The position numbers were made by a program, and so were the translations under genes. From Actinomadura graeca (lineage in GTDB: Bacteria > Actinomycetota > Actinomycetes > Streptosporangiales > Streptosporangiaceae): a stretch of 64,000 nt of DNA. Below the pieces are notes generated by a model. It was not told the DNA's origin. It made no database searches and worked only from the letters and a program-made list of their open reading frames with translations. Below, in pieces: positions 9,911 through 38,701 of this stretch (its first letter is position 1; the number at the start of each line of letters is the position of its first letter). The stretch covers positions 5,146,001-5,210,000 of the forward strand of contig NZ_CP059572.1 in the NCBI RefSeq assembly GCF_019175365.1. The letters run 5' to 3'.

Positions 9911-12427
9911 ATGACCCTCGGGGGCCGTCCGGGCGGGGCGATGATGGCGGTCATGCCGGGCAGTGAGGGGACGGAGCGACCGCCGTCCTCCGCGCCCTCG
10001 CCGGTGACCGGGGCGGGGGAGCGGTCGATCGGGGCGGGGCGGATCTCGGGCATCGCTTCGACCGGTGACAACACGACCAACATCCAGGCGGTGCTGCCGC
10101 CTCACGCGCTGCGGCCGGCGGCGGAGGTGGAGGCCCCGGCGGGGCTGGCGAACGTGCCCGGACGTCATCACCTCTTCGTCGGCCGCCGCGCCGAGCTGGA
10201 CGAGCTGGACGCGGTGCTGGAGGCGGCGAGCGGGGTGGTCGTCGCGGCGGTGCACGGACTGGGCGGCATCGGCAAGTCGACCCTGGCCGCCCGCTACGCC
10301 GCCGACCGCGCCGGCCGGTGGGGCCCGGTGTGGTGGATCACCGCTGACACCCCGCAAGGGGTGCAGGCGGGTCTGGCGGCGCTGGCCGCGGCGCTGCAAC
10401 CGGCGTTGCAGACGGTGCTGTCCCTGCGGGAACTGGCCGGGTGGGCGCTGGACTGGCTGGCCTGCCACCGGGACTGGCTGCTGGTGCTGGACAACGTCAA
10501 CGATCCCGCCGACGTCGCCCCGGTGATGGACCGCGCGGCGCGTGGCCGGGTGCTGATCACCAGCCGCCTGGCCGAGGGCTGGCACCGCCTCGGCGCGCAG
10601 GTCGTCCGGCTGGAGGTCCTCACCCAGGAGCAGGCGGTGGAACTGCTCACCCGGATCATTTCCGGGACCACTGCGTCCGGTGACGCTGGAGGCGCGGGCC
10701 CGTTCCGGGGGGTGCGGGGGGTCGTCCCCTCACAGGAGACGGGCCCGGTGCCGTCCGGTGCCGCCGAGCTGGTGGCCGAGCTGGGGTGCCTGCCGCTGGC
10801 CGTGGAGCAGGCCGCCGCGTTCCTGCACCAGACCCGCCTCTCCCCGGCCCGGTACCTGGAGCTGCTGCGCGAGAACCCGGCCGTGATGTACGACCGGACC
10901 GCCCGCGGCGCCGACGGTGAACGCACCGTCGCCGGGATCTGGCGCATCACCCTGGACGCTCTGGCCGGCACGCCGCTGGCAGGGAGGCTGCTGCGGGTGG
11001 TGGCGTGGTGGGCGCCGGAGGCCATACCCCGCGGTCTGCTGGACCCGCTGGGCGATGCGGTGGAGGTCGCCGCCGCGCTCGGGGAACTGGCCGCCTACAA
11101 CATGGTCTCCCTGGACGCCGGGACGGTCACGGTGCACCGGCTGGTCCAGGCCGTCGCGCGCACTCCGGACGCCACCGACCCGCACCGGCGTCCCGACGAC
11201 ATCGCCGCCGCCCGCGACCAGGCGGCGCAGCTGCTGAACCGGGCCCGTCCCTCCGATTTCCGGGATCCGGCGCTGTGGCCGTTGTGGCGGACGCTGCTGC
11301 CGCATATCGACGCGCTCGCCGTCCACACCGACCCAGACGCCGACACCCTGGACATCCTGCCCCTGCTCAACTGGACGGCGGCGTTCCTGAACGGCCAGGG
11401 AGCCGTCCAGCGCGCCATCGCCTACTACACCCGCGGCCTGGCCGGTGACCAGCGCCTCCGCGGCGACCTCGACCCCGAGACCCTGCGCTCGCGCAACAAC
11501 CTCGCCAGCGCCTACCAGTCGGCGGGGGATCTGCGCCGGGCGATCCCGCTCTACGAGCGGACCCTCGCCGAGTGGGAACAGGTGCTCGGCAGCGATCATC
11601 CCGACACCCTGAACTGCCGCAACAACCTCGCCAACGCCCTCCAGGCGACGGGGGCCCTCGGCCGGGCGATCCAGCTTTATGAGCGGACCCTCGCCGACCG
11701 GGAGCGGGTGCTGGGCGATGACCATCCCGACACCCTGCTCTCCCGCAACAATCTCGCTCACGCCTACCAGTCGGCGGGGGACCTCGACCGGTCACTTCCG
11801 CTGTACGAGCGGACCCTCGCCGATCGGGAGCGGGTGCTGGGCGGCGACCATCCCGACACCCTGCTCTCCCGCAACAACCTCGCCAGCGCCTACCAGACCG
11901 CGGGGGATCTGGATCGCGCGATCACCCTGCATGAGCAGACCTTCGCCGATCGGGAGCGGGTGCTGGGCGGCGACCATCCCGCCACCCTGCAATCCCGCAA
12001 CAACCTCGCCCACGTCTACCAGTCGGCAGGGAGTCTCGACCTGGCGATCCCCTTGTACGAGCAGACACTCGCCGACCGGGAGCGGGTGCTGGGCAACGAT
12101 CACCCCGACACCCTGAACTCCCGGAACAACCTCGCTCACGCCTACCAGTCGGCGGGTGATCTCCAACGGGCGATCCCCTTGTACGAGCGGACGCTCGCCG
12201 ACCGGGAGCGGGTGCTGGGCGACGATCACCCCGACACCCTGATCTCCCGCAACAATTTCGCCTACGTCCGTCAGGCGGCGGGAGATCTCGGCCAGGCGAT
12301 CCGGCTGTACCGGCAGGCCCTCGCCGACTGCGAGCGGGTGCTGGGCGCCGACCACCCGACGACCAAGGTCGTGCGCGGCAATGTGGAACGGGCCGAGCAG
12401 GCCCAGGCCGAGCAGCCGCCCGCCTGA
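9911..12427 (+). CDS. STAND/NB-ARC NTPase with seven TPR repeats
   Basis: An 838-residue NLR-like protein. N-terminal residues 1-60 are low-complexity and end in an Asn/Gly/Thr segment (ISGIASTGDNTTNIQ, residues 46-60). The NTPase follows: VPGRHHLFVGR (83-91), Walker A GLGGIGKST (116-124), Walker B-like LLVLDN (190-195), LITSR. A helical linker leads to seven kinesin-light-chain-type TPRs of exactly 42 residues and a short tail. Such proteins are ligand-sensing switches in regulation or defence; no effector domain is fused here. The start is uncertain: ATG 9911 gives the longest form, with others at 9941, 9944 and 9953. It lies beside defence genes (Wadjet) but is not in an operon with them. 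Confidence 0.88.
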   Translation: MTLGGRPGGAMMAVMPGSEGTERPPSSAPSPVTGAGERSIGAGRISGIASTGDNTTNIQAVLPPHALRPAAEVEAPAGLANVPGRHHLFVGRRAELDELDAVLEAASGVVVAAVHGLGGIGKSTLAARYAADRAGRWGPVWWITADTPQGVQAGLAALAAALQPALQTVLSLRELAGWALDWLACHRDWLLVLDNVNDPADVAPVMDRAARGRVLITSRLAEGWHRLGAQVVRLEVLTQEQAVELLTRIISGTTASGDAGGAGPFRGVRGVVPSQETGPVPSGAAELVAELGCLPLAVEQAAAFLHQTRLSPARYLELLRENPAVMYDRTARGADGERTVAGIWRITLDALAGTPLAGRLLRVVAWWAPEAIPRGLLDPLGDAVEVAAALGELAAYNMVSLDAGTVTVHRLVQAVARTPDATDPHRRPDDIAAARDQAAQLLNRARPSDFRDPALWPLWRTLLPHIDALAVHTDPDADTLDILPLLNWTAAFLNGQGAVQRAIAYYTRGLAGDQRLRGDLDPETLRSRNNLASAYQSAGDLRRAIPLYERTLAEWEQVLGSDHPDTLNCRNNLANALQATGALGRAIQLYERTLADRERVLGDDHPDTLLSRNNLAHAYQSAGDLDRSLPLYERTLADRERVLGGDHPDTLLSRNNLASAYQTAGDLDRAITLHEQTFADRERVLGGDHPATLQSRNNLAHVYQSAGSLDLAIPLYEQTLADRERVLGNDHPDTLNSRNNLAHAYQSAGDLQRAIPLYERTLADRERVLGDDHPDTLISRNNFAYVRQAAGDLGQAIRLYRQALADCERVLGADHPTTKVVRGNVERAEQAQAEQPPA
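11474..12355 (+). repeat. Seven tandem 126-bp TPR-encoding repeats
   Basis: Exact 126-bp periodicity, one unit per 42-residue TPR (each P-D-T-L-x-S-R-N-N-L-A ... L-A-D-R-E-R-V-L-G-x-D-H). Units 3, 4 and 6 are nearly identical in DNA as well as protein, including the block encoding LADRERVLG. This points to recent duplication or gene conversion inside the STAND gene. Confidence 0.93.
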
Positions 12428-31137: not shown

Positions 31138-31791
31138 GTGAACGGTTTCGCCGCCTTTATTTCCGCTGAGCAGTGGACGGGTCTGTGCGCGGCCGGACGG
31201 GCAAGGTCTTTTCGCGGCGGTGAGCGGCTCTTGGCCCAGGGGGATCCCGCCGACCACGTCCTCCTGCTGACGCACGGCCGAGTGAAGATCTGGCGCGACG
31301 AGGATGACGGGAAAAGGATCCTTCTCGCCGTCCGCTGGCCTCTGGATCTGCTGGGGGCGCGGGGGATGCTCGGCGCCGGAGTCCGGACCGCTTCGGTGGA
31401 GGCCCTGGACGCGTGCGAGGCCAGGCAGATCTCCGCGGACCGGTTCCGCGCGCTCGTCGATCGTCTGGGACTGCGCGGTGTCCTCTTCCAGTATCTGGCC
31501 GCCCACCTGCAGGAAAGCGAGGACCTCCGCGCGGATCGCACGGCCGTCCCGGCGAGACGGCAGGTGGCGCGGTTCCTCGTCCGTCTCGCCGAGACGGCGA
31601 GCCTGCACGCCGGACGCGACGCCACCGGCCTCGGCCTCGGCATCAGGCAGAACGATATCGCGGCGGCCCTCGGGCTGGTCCGGCAGACCGTCGGGCAGGA
31701 GCTCAAGGCGCTCCACCATGACGGGATCATCGACTATGACCGGGGAATGATCGTCGTCCGGGACCGGGAGCGGCTGCTCAGTCGAATCTAG
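31138..31791 (+). CDS. Crp/Fnr-family regulator upstream of the cyclase operon
   Basis: A 217-residue CRP-fold protein. The N-terminal beta-roll shows GERLLAQGDPADHVLLLTHGRVKIWRDE and the phosphate-cassette region LLGARGMLGAGVRTASVEAL: the Arg-Thr pair that holds cyclic-nucleotide phosphate is present, but the usual Gly-Glu is Gly-Ala. The long dimer helix and C-terminal helix-turn-helix (IRQNDIAAALGLVRQTVGQELKAL) are complete. GTG 31138 is preferred; a TTG at 31117 is also in frame. It is co-directional with and 88 bases before a putative nucleotide cyclase, an arrangement in which the regulator could sense the cyclase product (inference). Confidence 0.88.
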   Translation: MNGFAAFISAEQWTGLCAAGRARSFRGGERLLAQGDPADHVLLLTHGRVKIWRDEDDGKRILLAVRWPLDLLGARGMLGAGVRTASVEALDACEARQISADRFRALVDRLGLRGVLFQYLAAHLQESEDLRADRTAVPARRQVARFLVRLAETASLHAGRDATGLGLGIRQNDIAAALGLVRQTVGQELKALHHDGIIDYDRGMIVVRDRERLLSRI

Positions 31792-31802
31792 CTCACACCC
31801 TT

Positions 31803-31813
31803 ATATGTCATAT
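31803..31813. promoter_or_regulatory. AT-rich palindrome upstream of the cyclase operon
   Basis: ATATG-T-CATAT, a perfect 5-bp dyad in an AT-rich patch, lies 67 bases before the cyclase TTG and just after the Crp/Fnr stop. It could be part of a promoter or operator for the operon. The match to CRP sites is poor. Confidence 0.3.
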
Positions 31814-31879
31814 TTCTGACCGTACCCCCTTTTTCGATCTTGCAAGCTGGTACTTCTCATCACGACCAAGGGGGCTGGT

Positions 31880-32707
31880 TTGACTGCGGCGATCAAGCTG
31901 ATCAATCGATTCATCTTCACGGTCGATGTCCGGCGCTACACCACCCGGGACGCGCGGCGCCAGATCGATATCCAGGCCGCGGTCGGCCTTCTTTCCGATC
32001 AGGCCGCGGTCCAGGCCGGGCTCGACCCCGGACTCTGGTTCAAGCAGACGACCGGAGACGGGTTCATCGCGGTGACCGAGGGGGACGTCGACTCCGTCCG
32101 GCTCGTCGGACGGTACCCCGATGAGCTCAACCGGGCCCTCACCCTCTACAACCTCGACCGTGTCGCCGAGGCCCGCATCGACCTGCGCCTCGCCATCCAC
32201 CACGGGACGATCGTGAGGCAGGACGGCAAGGACGACACCGGGGAGGCGTTCAACGAGGTCAGCCGCCTGCTGAACGCGACGTCGCTCCGCACCGCCCTGG
32301 AGCGGGCGGCCCCCGCCCATCTGGCCGCGATCGTGTCCGAGCCGGTGCACTCGTCCATCGTCCGCAGCACCTTCGACGGTCTGTCCGCGGCGTCCTTCGC
32401 CGAGGTGCAGGCGGAGGTGGCGGACAAGGACTACCGAAGAACGGCCTACCTGTACGTGCCGGGCCTGTCGGGCGTGGCCCTCGGCGCGCTGCTTGGCGGC
32501 GGCGACGGACCTGGGCCGGGCGCCGCCGGGCGACCGTCCGCCGCGCCGTCCGGGCCGTCCGCGCCGTCCGCGCCGTCCGGGCCGTCGTCCGACGCGTCCG
32601 GGCCGAGCGTCGATATGCCCGGGCCGAGGGTCAGGAACTCGACGCGCATCAAAGGCAACGGTAACCGCGTCGTCAACGCCGGAGGCGACGCGACGGGGAG
32701 TGCCTGA
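31880..32707 (+). CDS. Class III nucleotide cyclase-like protein with C-terminal Asn/Gly signalling motif
   Basis: A 275-residue soluble protein starting at TTG 31880, with AAGGGGG just upstream. Residues 1-195 read as a single cyclase homology domain. Candidate metal-binding Asp residues are D16 (FTVDVRRYT) and D60 (TTGDGFIAV), 44 apart as in canonical class III cyclases. N125 and R129 (GEAFNEVSRLLNA) match the Asn-x3-Arg transition-state pair, and D118 lies where the base-selecting Asp sits. Gln56 replaces the usual base-selecting Lys. A Pro/Ser/Gly linker (about 205-250) leads to NSTRIKGNGNRVVNAGGD near the C-terminus. The product could be a purine or pyrimidine cyclic nucleotide, or the domain could be a sensor. 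The stop overlaps the next ATG (TGATG). Confidence 0.7.
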   Translation: MTAAIKLINRFIFTVDVRRYTTRDARRQIDIQAAVGLLSDQAAVQAGLDPGLWFKQTTGDGFIAVTEGDVDSVRLVGRYPDELNRALTLYNLDRVAEARIDLRLAIHHGTIVRQDGKDDTGEAFNEVSRLLNATSLRTALERAAPAHLAAIVSEPVHSSIVRSTFDGLSAASFAEVQAEVADKDYRRTAYLYVPGLSGVALGALLGGGDGPGPGAAGRPSAAPSGPSAPSAPSGPSSDASGPSVDMPGPRVRNSTRIKGNGNRVVNAGGDATGSA

Positions 32708-34953
32708 TGGGGGACTCCGCCGAGCCTCGCGCGGACGAGCCGGACGTCCCCGAGCCCGAACGCGCATCGGAGCCGGAACCGGAGCCGAAGCCGGAACCCC
32801 GGCAGGACGATCAGCCGGAGAGGCCACGTCCCGCCGCGAGCGAGGAGGCCCTTTCCGACGACACCGACTCGTCCGGCTCGTTCCGCGACCGGATGGCCGC
32901 CGACGATCGCGAGCGCGAGCTGCGCAGCCGGAGCCTGCGCGGCCTCACCAGCAACAGGACCCGGATCGACGGGCGTTTCAACTCGGTCCTGAACGCCGGT
33001 GGGGACATCAACGTCCGCTCCGACCAGAAGGGCCGGGCGCAGAGCCCCCGGGTCAGCATGGGCGAAGCGCACGCGCTGCTGAACTGCGCGACCGGTGTCG
33101 ACGCGGTCGTGGAACGGGTCGTGGAGGTGCTGAGACGCCATCGGATCGCCCTGGTGAGAGGCCCCTCCGGAAGCGGGAGGACGGCCACGGCCACGCTCGC
33201 GCTCCTGCACGCCGACGCCGGGGAACGCGCCCGGGTCGAAGCCGCGAAGGAGTACCGGGACCAGCCGGCGAATGTCGCGAGGCTGCTGTTGCGCGACGAT
33301 CCACTCGAATTGTCGTGCGAGGACCTGGACGGCGGGATCGGCTACGTCCTGGACGCGACGGACGAGTCATGGCCGCGCCGCAGTGCCGCGAGCGCGAGCG
33401 TGGTCGCGCATCTCGCCGATCTCGCCGTCCGGACGGATGGCCGCATCGTCGTGGTCGTCGGTGAGAGCTGCCAGCCCGACGACCGGACGATCGACCAGGC
33501 GATGCCGGACGCGGAGGAGGTGTTCGCCAGGCGCCTGGAGTACCTGCTGCACGCGGTGCGCGACCCTCGCGCCTGGGTGGACAAGATCCGGACGTCGCCG
33601 GAGCTGAAGGCGGCCCTTGGCGAGAGCCCGACCCCCCGGATCGCGGTCGACACCGCGTACGAGGTCTTCCAGGTCCACGAGCAGCACGGGCCCGAGAAGG
33701 GCATCGACGCCTACCTGTCGGGCCTTCCCGCGCTCGTGCTCACCGAGATGCACGGCAAGCTCCACGACGACGATCCGGCCACACTGCGCAAGCGCTGCTT
33801 CGCGATCGCCGCCGCGGTCCTCAACACACTGCCGGCCGTCACGGTGTCGCGGGCGGCGCTCGCGCTGGCCGCCCTCGTGGAGAAGACGGACCAGGAGGAG
33901 ATCCCGGCGGCGGTGCTGGCGTGGGAGCAGCTCACCGAATGGCTGACCTTCGCCGGTGCGACGGCTTCGCCGTCCACGCGGGGGGAGGGGCGGATCGTCC
34001 GGCTGAAGCGGCCGACCCAGGCGCACGCCACGCTGGAGGCGGTGTGGGAGGAGCACCCGACCGTCCGCGAGCCGCTGATCGTCTGGCTCAGGTGGCTGTC
34101 CGAGCACACCGACCAGGCCGTGCGGATCAGGACGGCGCACGCGGTGGGCACGCTCGCGACCTTCGACTTCGATGTGATCGAGCGTGACTTCCTGCTGCCG
34201 TGGGCGAGGGCGAGGTCCATCCGGAAGCACCAGCTCGCCGCCTGGGTGCTGGAGGCGGCGGCCACCCAGGACGGCATCGCCGACCGCGTCCGCGTGCTGC
34301 TGCGCCGCTGGGCGGGCGGGTCCCGCACGCAGCAGTCGGTGGCGGCCCGCGCGTACGGCTCGGAGATCGGGATGCTCTGGGTCGACGACACGCTGAACGC
34401 CTTCGAGACGATCAGCAAGGTGATCCGGCTGCCGCCGCTCCAGGACGCGGTGGCCCGGTCGATCGCGGACCTGTTCGGCGAGGGCCGCGAGACGGAGATC
34501 CTGCACAAGCTCCACGCATGGAGTGACGACGACTTCCCCAGCCAGCGGCGCACGGCCGCGCTCGCCTTCAACCGGCTGATCAACCGGCTCCGGTCCCAGG
34601 ACGGCAGGACCGGGATGGTCGAGCTTCTCGACGGGTGTGACCCGTCCCTCCACCGGCTCCTGATCGGGCTGTGGTGGAACGCGCTGAGCGGCGGGGTGAC
34701 GCTGACGCACCGGCGGTCCCTGCGCGGCGCCGCCGACAACGCCGCGTGGGACATCATCGCCGACTGGCTGCGCAGCGAGGCCGTGTACCCGGTGCTCGGC
34801 CCCGTGATCGACGGGGTGTTCCGGCTCGACGAGGAGCACTCCGACCTCAGGGGCCCGCTGTCCCTGCACCTCCGACTCTGGTTCCACCGCAATCCCAAGA
34901 TCATCGGAAGCGAGCGCGCCGAGCGTCTCGCCCGCATTCTGGAGCAGAACTGA
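32707..34953 (+). CDS. P-loop protein with shared Asn/Gly motif and helical-repeat C-terminus
   Basis: A 748-residue protein. Residues 1-75 are acidic and proline-rich (PEPERASEPEPEPKPEP). Residues 83-100 read NRTRIDGRFNSVLNAGGD, matching the cyclase C-terminus at 12 of 18 positions. A P-loop follows, GPSGSGRT at 152-159, with a Walker B-like strand GRIVVVVGES. The C-terminal 400 residues are helix pairs with the look of HEAT/ARM repeats (VRIRTAHAVGTLATFDFDVI; RRTAALAFNRLINRL). This is the layout of a STAND-like signalling NTPase, though the NTPase core is short and not classical. It is coupled to the cyclase gene (one-base overlap) and 2 bases from the next gene. Confidence 0.65.
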   Translation: MGDSAEPRADEPDVPEPERASEPEPEPKPEPRQDDQPERPRPAASEEALSDDTDSSGSFRDRMAADDRERELRSRSLRGLTSNRTRIDGRFNSVLNAGGDINVRSDQKGRAQSPRVSMGEAHALLNCATGVDAVVERVVEVLRRHRIALVRGPSGSGRTATATLALLHADAGERARVEAAKEYRDQPANVARLLLRDDPLELSCEDLDGGIGYVLDATDESWPRRSAASASVVAHLADLAVRTDGRIVVVVGESCQPDDRTIDQAMPDAEEVFARRLEYLLHAVRDPRAWVDKIRTSPELKAALGESPTPRIAVDTAYEVFQVHEQHGPEKGIDAYLSGLPALVLTEMHGKLHDDDPATLRKRCFAIAAAVLNTLPAVTVSRAALALAALVEKTDQEEIPAAVLAWEQLTEWLTFAGATASPSTRGEGRIVRLKRPTQAHATLEAVWEEHPTVREPLIVWLRWLSEHTDQAVRIRTAHAVGTLATFDFDVIERDFLLPWARARSIRKHQLAAWVLEAAATQDGIADRVRVLLRRWAGGSRTQQSVAARAYGSEIGMLWVDDTLNAFETISKVIRLPPLQDAVARSIADLFGEGRETEILHKLHAWSDDDFPSQRRTAALAFNRLINRLRSQDGRTGMVELLDGCDPSLHRLLIGLWWNALSGGVTLTHRRSLRGAADNAAWDIIADWLRSEAVYPVLGPVIDGVFRLDEEHSDLRGPLSLHLRLWFHRNPKIIGSERAERLARILEQN

Positions 34954-34955
34954 CC

Positions 34956-35831
34956 ATGCCCCTCTTCCGACGCAAGCCGAAGACCTCCCCGCCGCCCGCC
35001 GCGGCGCACAAGGAACGTGAGACCGGCCGTACATCGCCGATCACCATGGTCAAGCGGATCTTCCAGCCGCCGCCCGCGCCGGAGAACCTGGAGAACACCC
35101 ACCACGAGACCGACTACACGCATCAGTTCCAGACGCCCGCCCGCGACGACGTCTTCGAGTTCATCGTCACCGTTCAGCTGGAATGGTGCGCCAAGGGCGA
35201 GCGTTCGCTCTCCGAGCTGAGCGCGGACATCGCGGCGGAACGGGACGGGACGCACAACCGGGTCCGCGCGATCGCCCGTGACGCGAGCCGCAAGCACTCG
35301 CCGTTCAACGCCTCGGAGGCCGAACGGGAGATCAACGAGGCCCTCCAGCGGGAATTCGAGACCATCGTCCACAGCTGTGAGGACGTCGAGGTCACCTGCA
35401 CTCCCTCCGTCCACGTGGTGATGAGCGAGGAGGTCAGGGCCAGCCGCCAGGAGCTGGGCCACAGCCTGCTCAAGATCGAGGCGAACGCCGAGGCGCACAA
35501 GCTCCAGCTCAAGAAATGGGCCGAGCTGCGCGACCTGTGGCTGGTGTTCCTGAAGGAGAAGTCCGACGACCACGCGGTCCGCTTCGCGGTGGAACTCGCG
35601 GAGAAGCCGGCCAACATCGCCGGCGTCATGGACCTGATGCGAACCGAGCGCCGGGAGGACGCGGAGCGCCTGCTGCGGATCGTCGACTCCGTCATCAACG
35701 CCCAGCAGACCGCCAATGTCTACGACCTGGTCGTGAGCAGCGAAACGGTCCTGCGCAAGACGCTGGAGATGATGGGCCTGGACGTCCCGGCCGAGACCGT
35801 GTTCGAGTCGCTCGCGGACGGATTCAACTGA
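34956..35831 (+). CDS. Unknown protein, possibly SPFH/band-7-like, in the cyclase operon
   Basis: A 291-residue protein with no recognised family. After a basic, proline-containing N-terminus (FRRKPKTSPPP; IFQPPPAPENLENTHHETDY) comes a strand-rich region (DVFEFIVTVQLEWCAKGER), helices (SEAEREINEALQREFETIVHSC), another strand pair (VEVTCTPSVHVVMSEEV), then a long charged helix (RQELGHSLLKIEANAEAHKLQLKKW). That order is reminiscent of SPFH/band-7 domains with their trailing coiled coil, but there is no membrane anchor. The C-terminal 100 residues are helical. Its stop overlaps the following ATG. Confidence 0.55.
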   Translation: MPLFRRKPKTSPPPAAAHKERETGRTSPITMVKRIFQPPPAPENLENTHHETDYTHQFQTPARDDVFEFIVTVQLEWCAKGERSLSELSADIAAERDGTHNRVRAIARDASRKHSPFNASEAEREINEALQREFETIVHSCEDVEVTCTPSVHVVMSEEVRASRQELGHSLLKIEANAEAHKLQLKKWAELRDLWLVFLKEKSDDHAVRFAVELAEKPANIAGVMDLMRTERREDAERLLRIVDSVINAQQTANVYDLVVSSETVLRKTLEMMGLDVPAETVFESLADGFN

Positions 35832-37105
35832 TGGCGTCACGTCGTGCCGTCGCGATCGTCGCGGCGCTCTGCCTGGCGACCGCGGGCTGTTCGTCGGTCG
35901 GCAAGGTCATGGGAATCGAGGGCGAGGACGTCGACGCGTGCGACTGGCTGTCGCAGCAGCACGGGAAGAAGAACCCGGCCGCCCTCGACCTGGTCGCGGT
36001 CTTCGACAGGAGCGCCTCGATGAGCGGGCGCGAGGACCGGAAGGCGCGCGACTGGTACAGCCAGATCTTCGGCAGCGCACAGGACCCGGAGAAGTCGACG
36101 CTCGTCTTCGACAACGGCGAGATGCCGACACCCGCGTCCATCAGGATCGGCGGTTTCGACGGGGCGGGCAAGGTGGACTGGCAGCCGCCCATCAGCCTTC
36201 CCGCGCTCGGTGGAAGGGGAAAGTACGGAAGCGAATTCGCGCGGAACACCGAAACCTGCCTGCGGAGCCGGGTCACCAAGGCGGTCACCGGCGCCAGCGA
36301 GGCCCCCGGCAGCGATGTCCTGGGAGCCATGGCCTCCGCCGGACGCGAGGGAAGGGCCGACGCCAGGCGGCGGAAGCTGATCGTCGTCTCGGACGGCCTG
36401 CAGACCGTCGGCTGCGCGGACCTGGGCAAGCTCACCCCTGGAAGCCAGGGACAGGCCGGCCGGGTCTCGGCGAACTGCGTCGCCCAAGGTGCCGTGCCCG
36501 ACCTCAACGGCTGGAACGTCGTCCTGTACGGCGTGGGGAACCCCGGCAAGGGCTGGCCGGCCCCGCGGAACGGCGCCCAGACCTGGCTGACGTCGCTGTG
36601 GTCCCAGCTCTGCCACGCGGCGGTCGGCGGATCCGGGAGATGCGCCCTCGACACGCACGACCCGGACGACCTCGGCAAGAAGGCGGCCGAGGGTGTCAGC
36701 GACCCTGTGGTGCCGTTCAAGACCGTGGAGAAGCCGCCGCCGGAACGGACGGTCACGCTTTCGTCGAGCCTGCTCTTCGACACGGACAAATGGGAGCTGA
36801 AACCCGAGGGGCGGCGGGCCATCGACAAGGCCATGGACGGAGTCGACGCGGACAGGATCGAGTGGGTCCAGGTCAAGGGCTACACCGACAGCCGCGGCAG
36901 CGACGTCTACAACAAGGGTCTTTCGCGGAAGAGGGCGGGCGCCGTCGGCGCCGTCCTCGGGGATCTGCGCCTGAAAGGCATCAACGTCGCAGGCTACGGC
37001 GAAGCGGATCAGGCGTGCTCCGAGAAGGGACTGTCCGGACGCGCGCTCGCCGCGGCCCAGGAATGCAACCGCAGAGTGGAAATCAAGTACAAGGTGCGAA
37101 CGTGA
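35831..37105 (+). CDS. Lipoprotein with vWA-like and OmpA C-terminal domains
   Basis: A 424-residue exported lipoprotein. The leader ends in the lipobox LATAGC (Cys20). A von Willebrand A-like domain follows, with the MIDAS-type D-R-S-A-S in DLVAVFDRSASMSG and the strands RKLIVVSDGLQ and GWNVVLYGVGN. The last 110 residues are an OmpA/MotB-type peptidoglycan-binding domain: SSSLLFDTDKWELKPEGRRAID, VKGYTDSRGSDVYNKGLSRKRAGAV, GYGEADQA and RRVEIKYKV. It would sit on the outer face of the membrane and hold peptidoglycan. In an operon with a cyclase and an NTPase it is an odd partner, suggesting envelope sensing. Confidence 0.85.
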   Translation: MASRRAVAIVAALCLATAGCSSVGKVMGIEGEDVDACDWLSQQHGKKNPAALDLVAVFDRSASMSGREDRKARDWYSQIFGSAQDPEKSTLVFDNGEMPTPASIRIGGFDGAGKVDWQPPISLPALGGRGKYGSEFARNTETCLRSRVTKAVTGASEAPGSDVLGAMASAGREGRADARRRKLIVVSDGLQTVGCADLGKLTPGSQGQAGRVSANCVAQGAVPDLNGWNVVLYGVGNPGKGWPAPRNGAQTWLTSLWSQLCHAAVGGSGRCALDTHDPDDLGKKAAEGVSDPVVPFKTVEKPPPERTVTLSSSLLFDTDKWELKPEGRRAIDKAMDGVDADRIEWVQVKGYTDSRGSDVYNKGLSRKRAGAVGAVLGDLRLKGINVAGYGEADQACSEKGLSGRALAAAQECNRRVEIKYKVRT

Positions 37106-37106
37106 G

Positions 37107-38609
37107 ATGAGACATTTCGAAGAGCCGCACGGCCATGGGCATGGCCACGGCCAGGGTCAAGGCGATGGGCGCGTGCGCAGCCACCGGCATGAGCACCGGC
37201 AGCCCGACGGAAACCCGACGGTTCCACCGTCAGAGCCCCCCGCGCCTCCGGAGCCTCCGGAGCCCCCGGAATCGGCGGGACCGCCGGAGCCGCCGTTGCC
37301 GCCGGAATCGGCGAAACAGCCGCGCGACCGCCACGAAGAGCCGATCAGCGGCCGGATCGTCCCGTCCTCGTCGCACCACACGTGCACGCACGGATGCGAT
37401 TGCTGGAAGAAGGGTTTCCAGGACTACATCGACCGGAGTCCCGAACGCGAACCCCACGAAACCGACAACCAGGAGGCGCACGCGCTCCTGGTGGCGCGCA
37501 ACCGGGCCATCCGCGACGTCCGGCGCCGCAGAGGCGAGCTCGCCGCGGCCCGCCACAGCGTGATCTCCGGTCACGGCGCGCTCCAGGAGCGGATGAACCG
37601 GATGCGCTCGCTCACCGGGCGGCGCGTCCTGCCCGGCCTCGCCGAGCGCCACAGCGCCGAGGGCTCGCGTGAGGAGCCGAGGCCGCCGTTCTGGCTGCGG
37701 GTCGTCCACTGGCCGGTGGTGATCTCGGCCGGGCTGTTCGACCTCTGGTACTTCATGCAGATCTTCCAGCTGATCAGCCTCGGCAACCGGTCGGCGAGCC
37801 TGCTGGACATCATCGTCACCGCGCTTCCGGGACTCGTCCTCGCGGTCGGGCTCGTCGTCTCCGGGCACCTCGTCGGCGCGCCCCTCTACCGGGCGATGCG
37901 GCGGCACGAGGCACTGCAGGAGCAGCGCCGGGGGCTGAAGCGGTGGATCTGCGGGCTGTGGCCCTGGCCCATGCGGCTCGCCCTGCCGATGACGCTCATC
38001 TTCATCACGGGACTGTGGGGCGCGTTCCGGGCGATCGAGGCGAACGGCGGCCAGGCCAAGGTCTCGATGCAGATGGTCGGCCTGCTCGTGATGGCCCTGG
38101 CGGTCACCGCCATCGTGATCAAGGCGGCCGCCTACGACCCGGTCGCGGAGGGCAGGGGCGACGCACGACGCGATCTGCTTCTGGTGCGGGTCCGGCTGGG
38201 GTGGTACCGACGGCAGGCCCATCGCAAGCTCGCCGAGTGCCGCCGGTCATGGAGCGACCTCTGCGCACTGCGGGACGAGGTGGTCGCCCAGGTGCGCGGG
38301 CGCTATGGCGAGGCATACGAGTTCATCACCTACGCGCGCGGCATGCACGGCAAGGCCGGGCAGCTGCCTCCCTCGTTCGCCACGATGGCCGCGTTCGAAC
38401 CCGACCCCGAGTCGCTGGCCGGCCGGGTCGAGAGCGACTTCCAAGCCGTCGACCAGCCGCCACCGGAGTTCGCGGACCTGCGCGAGGTGCAACGGGTGAT
38501 CCTGAAGTACGACCCGGAGTCGATGGCGGAGGAACTCGCACGCCTCACGGGCGAGGCCGACAGTCAGCTGACCGTCACGTCGGCTCTTTCGGGCGAAGCC
38601 GCGAGGTAG
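37107..38609 (+). CDS. Four-helix membrane protein with His/Pro-rich N-terminus
   Basis: A 500-residue protein of unknown family. Residues 1-80 are low-complexity: H-G-H-G-H-G-Q-G-Q-G-D-G, then PPEPPEPPESAGPPEPPLPP. A Cys/His cluster HTCTHGCDCWKKG (about 92-104) could bind metal. A charged helix follows, then four membrane segments: VVISAGLFDLWYFMQIFQL, IIVTALPGLVLAVGLVVSG, LALPMTLIFITGLWGAF and MVGLLVMALAVTAIVIKAA. The last 150 residues are cytoplasmic-looking helices. It is the final gene of the operon, one base after the lipoprotein stop, and is followed by a strong terminator. It may be the membrane effector or anchor of the system. Confidence 0.65.
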   Translation: MRHFEEPHGHGHGHGQGQGDGRVRSHRHEHRQPDGNPTVPPSEPPAPPEPPEPPESAGPPEPPLPPESAKQPRDRHEEPISGRIVPSSSHHTCTHGCDCWKKGFQDYIDRSPEREPHETDNQEAHALLVARNRAIRDVRRRRGELAAARHSVISGHGALQERMNRMRSLTGRRVLPGLAERHSAEGSREEPRPPFWLRVVHWPVVISAGLFDLWYFMQIFQLISLGNRSASLLDIIVTALPGLVLAVGLVVSGHLVGAPLYRAMRRHEALQEQRRGLKRWICGLWPWPMRLALPMTLIFITGLWGAFRAIEANGGQAKVSMQMVGLLVMALAVTAIVIKAAAYDPVAEGRGDARRDLLLVRVRLGWYRRQAHRKLAECRRSWSDLCALRDEVVAQVRGRYGEAYEFITYARGMHGKAGQLPPSFATMAAFEPDPESLAGRVESDFQAVDQPPPEFADLREVQRVILKYDPESMAEELARLTGEADSQLTVTSALSGEAAR

Positions 38610-38662: not shown

Positions 38663-38701
38663 GACGGTCCGATCGATTGATCTATAGACGATCGGACCGT
38701 C
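38663..38701 (+). terminator. Strong terminator hairpin after the cyclase operon
   Basis: A perfect 13-bp stem (38663-38675 with 38689-38701; GACGGTCCGATCG) and 13-base loop, followed by TTTGTTG, 54 bases after the last stop. The best-looking rho-independent site in the window. The ends of the stem (GATCG) echo the palindrome at 38788. Confidence 0.8.

Follow-up and report, generated by a model that had tools for sequence, protein, structure and literature searches.

The 64,000-nucleotide stretch of the Actinomadura graeca genome analysed here (contig NZ_CP059572.1, positions 5,146,001 to 5,210,000 of the forward strand; hereafter the window, whose own numbering is used below) carries a putative operon of six plus-strand genes, A–F (31138–38609), present in this genome as a single copy. 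In order, they encode a Crp/Fnr-type regulator (A), a protein with a class III nucleotide-cyclase fold (B), a degenerate P-loop and HEAT-like scaffold (C), an SPFH/Band-7-fold protein (D), a predicted lipoprotein (E) and a membrane protein of unrecognised family (F). Our preferred reading, to which we assign a probability of about 0.5, is that these genes represent one version of a modular signalling kit of actinomycetes, in which a short tag would link an input protein to a scaffold that acts on a membrane output. The core of the kit is C, usually followed by D. The input, encoded directly upstream of C, is exchangeable, being either a cyclase (mostly with the Crp protein) or a SARP with an XRE/DUF397 pair, and so is the output encoded downstream, with E–F being one of several.

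The tag is a short cognate motif that the input protein, in its tail, shares with the C protein of its own locus, in its head, a pairing that has statistical support. In the window, it comprises 18 residues of the B tail (32636–32689, plus strand) and has its counterpart in the C head (32953–33006, plus strand). A DNA pattern for the motif core found exactly two sites in the 9-Mb genome, one in the C head and the other in the B tail, and the control gave 0. The bearer on the input side is a cyclase-fold protein or, at other loci, a SARP-type protein (BTAD), and the SARP-type inputs bear the same kind of tail motif. Matching motifs placed in this way, C-terminal in one protein and N-terminal in the product of the adjacent gene (here B and C), are the arrangement of bacterial amyloid signalling sequence (BASS) pairs and also of EAD coupling (PMC7159879), and they recall the paired tags of certain immune signalling complexes.

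An earlier note, made by reading this stretch alone, had named beforehand the recurrence of the five genes B–F elsewhere as a check on its proposal, and they do recur. In a neighbourhood survey of 82 loci (window included), for which family profiles were combined with a simple gene caller, B–F with a cyclase stand in the same order at 12 loci, the window among them, which is beyond chance. Immediately upstream of C, we found Crp plus cyclase at 48 loci, a cyclase without a Crp call at 13, a SARP at 12 and other genes at nine, while D directly follows C at 60. The run after D contains E and F at 15 loci, and another 15/82 count applies to a phosphatase/kinase/vWA-type set of fixed order (10 of a first kind and five of a second); PycTM, detected with our own profile, lies in the downstream run at 18. 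All 16 PycTM proteins tested scored above the Pfam cut-off, and all four scanned with PADLOC matched there too. In the first output set, PP2C_2 and VWA were each matched in the one protein tested, and the kinase-like member was recognised by eye (Pfam 0/4 above cut-off); in the second, Pkinase (2/2) and VWA_4 (1/1) were matched and the phosphatase-like member was assigned by eye (Pfam 0/1). The SARP-type input proteins gave Pfam matches to BTAD, DUF5753 and DUF397 (1/1 each). Where PycTM adjoins D, the two genes overlap by four bases in six of six cases, and gene gaps such as this suggest translational coupling within the operons.

The phylogeny of the scaffold also points to exchange at both ends. 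A quick maximum-likelihood tree was built from 72 C proteins, and 19 of its 69 inner branches have support below 80; it requires four or more changes of the input state (cyclase or SARP) and nine or more of the output state (E–F, first set, second set or none; PycTM left out of the scoring), these being raw counts without a shuffled-label comparison. Of 150 genomes from the family, 36 have a homologue of C, spread over 23 of 68 genera; at class level the figure is 65 of 394 genomes, in 21 of 137 genera (families f1, f4, f17, f18 and f46). The genome under study is counted in both, and the D family is found in 8 of the 65 genomes of the genus. Six named loci with F belong to Streptosporangium (two), Sinosporangium, Herbidospora, Nonomuraea and one metagenome-assembled genome.

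Several individual loci illustrate the range of builds. A. graeca itself has a second one, L072 (G000:C1:3649000-3666000, about 3.657 Mb), with an XRE/DUF397/SARP input followed by C, D and phosphatase-like, kinase and vWA genes; at L072 and at L076, which shares its layout, a cyclase-like gene lies just upstream and faces away. Six loci of family f18 (L095, L096, L097, L099, L103 and L104), in genomes that appear to be Streptomyces-like, have an A–B–C–D operon, with PycTM in four of them; we take their neighbours to be rpsL, rpsG and fusA, named from the protein starts at L095, and a gene of rpoC length bounds the other side in four of the six. At L094, L100 and L101, the operon continues into a large vWA-like protein and a tubulin-like one (by eye), parts known from GAP1-N2 systems.

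Among the individual proteins, B (31880–32707, TTG start, 275 residues) had been read as nucleotide cyclase-like, which both its fold and its profile bear out. It has no family match in Pfam (0 of 30 rows of its alignment), NCBIfam or PADLOC. Nevertheless, the alignment profile matches class III cyclase chains of the PDB (5d0g, E = 9.3e-5; Ma1120, 4wp8, E = 1.7e-4), and the AlphaFold model (predicted local distance difference test, pLDDT, 82; low-confidence tail from about residue 205), whose best Foldseek match to cyclases has E = 1.1e-8, confirms the class III fold at the level of predicted structure. Of 30 rows, 29 retain the metal-binding residue Asp16 and 29 retain Asp60, while Arg129 is conserved in 28 and Gln56, four residues ahead of Asp60, in 26; Asn125 is kept in just six, the window copy being among the keepers. 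The functional roles assigned to these positions are those of class III cyclases, in which adenylate cyclases have Lys at the position equivalent to Gln56, so the base choice of B may be unusual. The column two before the first metal Asp holds A, S, V, T, N or G in the 30 rows and is not aromatic. According to PMC11224242, two PycC proteins have an aromatic residue there (F100/D102 and F60/D62), and it is from these two pairs that we draw the rule of a PycC-type aromatic residue.

These features bear on an alternative that we consider unlikely, namely that the operon is an elaborated Pycsar-type defence, in which the cyclic nucleotide made by B would directly open an effector in the membrane, F in this operon and PycTM in related ones, with C and D having only a regulatory role and the motif tethering the cyclase. 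The cyclase fold of B and the PycTM effectors at 18 of the 82 related loci, with their confirmed identity and, where adjacent, their four-base overlap with D, are indeed Pycsar-like (PMC11224242), and the divergent cyclase-like gene upstream of the SARP-type L072 and L076 fits as well. However, none of A–F matches PycTM or TIR above cut-off and PycTM was not found in the A. graeca genome; none of the three B proteins scanned matches a PADLOC model, and B lacks the PycC-type aromatic residue. The cyclase-plus-receptor design described in PMC11224242 also has no place for a Crp protein, for C and D or for paired motifs, and a pure nucleotide circuit leaves unexplained why the motif is also borne by SARP inputs.

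The regulator reading of A (31138–31791, plus strand, GTG start, 217 residues) is upheld by Pfam, which finds a cyclic nucleotide monophosphate (cNMP)-binding domain and a Crp helix-turn-helix (HTH_Crp_2) with E values of 1.6e-18 and 1.4e-13, as expected of a Crp/Fnr protein. Its cNMP-binding part (residues 20–151) gives the only match in the operon to a PADLOC PycC model (1.4e-7), besides weak matches to PycTIR/TIR-effector models (8e-5 to 0.009). Across the family of A, the binding cassette has its Glu in 44 and its Arg in 48 of 52 members. In the window copy, Arg83 is retained and Ala74 replaces the Glu, so ligand binding may be altered.

The scaffold C (32707–34953, 748 residues) had been taken for a P-loop nucleoside triphosphatase (NTPase). 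A match to nSTAND3 is present but lies under the Pfam cut-off (E = 0.0095), and in the Walker-A-like stretch (33160–33183) Arg occupies the Lys position, as it does in 26 of 37 aligned C proteins (Lys in five, other residues in six). The proposal of an active signalling NTPase is not supported: with a sub-threshold match and the Lys mostly replaced, NTPase activity is doubtful. Over 37 rows, Pfam gives HEAT_2 in 12, HEAT in nine, nSTAND3 in four (E ≤ 0.01) and AAA_22 in two.

SPFH proteins are membrane-associated, and relatives of D form rings. The SPFH-like reading of D (34956–35831, 291 residues, with long helices) agrees with structure comparison, at moderate scores and about 7–17% identity in the alignments listed, and Pfam gives weak sub-threshold matches only; both the cyclase and the SPFH folds have thus passed the structure-based comparison that had been proposed. 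Unlike the stomatin-prohibitin-HflKC proteins whose fold it shares, D has no transmembrane segment and no N-terminal membrane anchor by hydropathy. E (35831–37105, 424 residues) has an N-terminal hydrophobic segment (residues 6–24), a lipobox recognised by eye and the expected OmpA domain (Pfam E = 2.4e-11, residues 315–403). Its presumed vWA domain has no Pfam match, but DxSxS and a later Asp, residues of the metal-ion-dependent adhesion site (MIDAS) type, are near-invariant in 11 rows. F (37107–38609, 500 residues) is a predicted membrane protein, as had been thought, with two strong hydrophobic segments (residues 233–251 and 323–341); it has an N-terminal Cys/His cluster, is conserved in 11 rows and matches no Pfam, NCBIfam or PADLOC family. 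Zorya, with its MotA-like ZorA and MotB-like ZorB, was considered and set aside: the sole match to ZorB models (2.9e-11) comes from the OmpA domain of E, and F has no match.

The OmpA domain, the signal-like segment of E and the membrane protein F, together with the membrane association general to SPFH proteins and the cNMP-binding signature of the A family, would suit an outside-in envelope stress sensor, in which damage to peptidoglycan or the membrane would be detected by E and F and relayed by way of D and C to the cyclase, which would then activate A through its product. We give this a low probability, considering that A of the window has lost its cNMP-site Glu and that E–F follow D at only 15 of the 82 loci, other builds ending in phosphatase/kinase/vWA sets or PycTM, so that E–F look like an optional output. 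That B is a pseudo-enzyme adaptor, its fold binding only a nucleotide or partner and its tail docking on C as an ordinary peptide that forms no amyloid, is very unlikely, for although Asn is lost in 24 of 30 rows, the tail is low-confidence in the model and a SARP can stand in for B, both metal Asp and the Arg are kept in 28–29 of 30, the window also keeps the Asn, and most A-family members keep the cNMP site.

In the modular kit that we favour, infection, stress or another trigger would lead the input protein to engage C through the motif, and by analogy with what has been proposed for BASS pairs, the contact would be homotypic, probably by cross-beta stacking. Assembled C would act through D, which may form rings, on the membrane output (here E and F). 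A catalytically active B would supply a cyclic nucleotide that A reads, thereby raising expression of the operon, and that PycTM reads in related operons. The outcome, we infer, would be envelope remodelling or growth arrest in an abortive-type response; all steps beyond motif pairing are ones that we infer, and the case for infection or envelope sensing by the operon is circumstantial.

The gene order, the spacings and the terminator arms described earlier were borne out by a coordinate check: A and B are 88 bases apart, B and C overlap by one base, C and D are separated by two, D and E overlap by one, and E and F are separated by one. A putative terminator (38663–38701, plus strand) has perfect 13-bp arms (38663–38675 and 38689–38701) and, directly 3′ of them, a weak T run, TTTGTTG. 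Codon composition (6/6) and conservation in relatives both back the six reading frames. Two starts, those of A and F, are unsure because the simple gene caller places them further in, at 31231 and 37296. Downstream, from 38781 on, the sequence is about 92% identical to that of congener G532, and on the left a match to congener G543 extends as far as the LysR gene, minus one gene. Because both flanks match without the operon, it is situated at a variable junction; its distribution is patchy. The congener flank comparisons revealed no clean empty site, and C has no match in phage records.

In the literature searched (mostly outside subscription journals), the related papers on conflict systems, Pycsar and amyloid signalling include none describing this gene set, in keeping with the novelty first proposed. 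BASS systems (PMC8086366, PMC7889193 and PMC12261475) share with ours the short C-terminal motif that resembles the N-terminal motif of a neighbour within the locus, as well as filamentous actinobacteria among their carriers. Here, however, the tail is on a nucleotide cyclase or SARP regulator rather than a Bell, CHAT or TIR protein, and what receives it is not a clear NLR but a P-loop/HEAT protein of degenerate type, mostly preceding an SPFH protein and variable outputs. MoxR-vWA, EAD and GAP1-N2 systems (PMC7159879, Kaur 2020, and PMC8195603) resemble the operon in their constant core, exchangeable effectors, homotypic coupling domains across adjacent genes, cyclase, Band-7 and vWA parts, kinase/PP2C/vWA sets, CRP and DUF397 links, and occurrence in multicellular actinobacteria. 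In contrast to EAD coupling (PMC7159879), coupling here would involve motifs of about 20 residues, the scaffold is of another family, and a predicted lipoprotein bears the vWA-like segment; at Pfam E ≤ 1, no member of A–F matches a MoxR/AAA or a GTPase family (the DO-GTPase partner). Membership of Pycsar, BASS-NLR, MoxR-vWA or GAP1 was rejected, each failing on at least one tested feature. Separately, about 19 kb upstream of the operon, the window encodes an NLR-like receptor, an 838-residue NB-ARC and TPR protein (9911–12427, plus strand) whose N-terminal stretch resembles a glycine/asparagine-rich short motif; at congener locus L127, a 55% identical homologue adjoins the left-flank genes.

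Overall, the operon appears to be a modular, homotypically coupled conflict-type system with an apparently undescribed gene set. The overall interpretation in the earlier note holds for gene co-occurrence, the cyclase and SPFH folds, patchy distribution and novelty, but it overlooked the exchangeable E–F, the swap of cyclase and SARP, PycTM in relatives and the motif joining input and scaffold. Tentatively, and with doubt outweighing confidence, these loci could be seen as an undescribed prokaryotic signalosome class, in which a locus-specific amyloid-type tag would wire a cyclase or, interchangeably, a SARP to a pseudo-STAND/HEAT scaffold; the scaffold would nucleate an SPFH ring, and the ring would drive swappable membrane, kinase/phosphatase or pore-forming outputs. 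If true, a single operon would combine prion-like templating with second-messenger immunity. If the modular reading is right, actinobacteria would possess a common plug-and-play signalling kit overlooked by standard annotation, because Pfam finds nothing in B and F and weak sub-threshold matches in C and D. The motif pairs make its wiring directly testable, and the loci point the way to more outputs of the PycTM and vWA types; the kit would connect SPFH assemblies with signalling by cyclic nucleotides and with templating by homotypic motifs.
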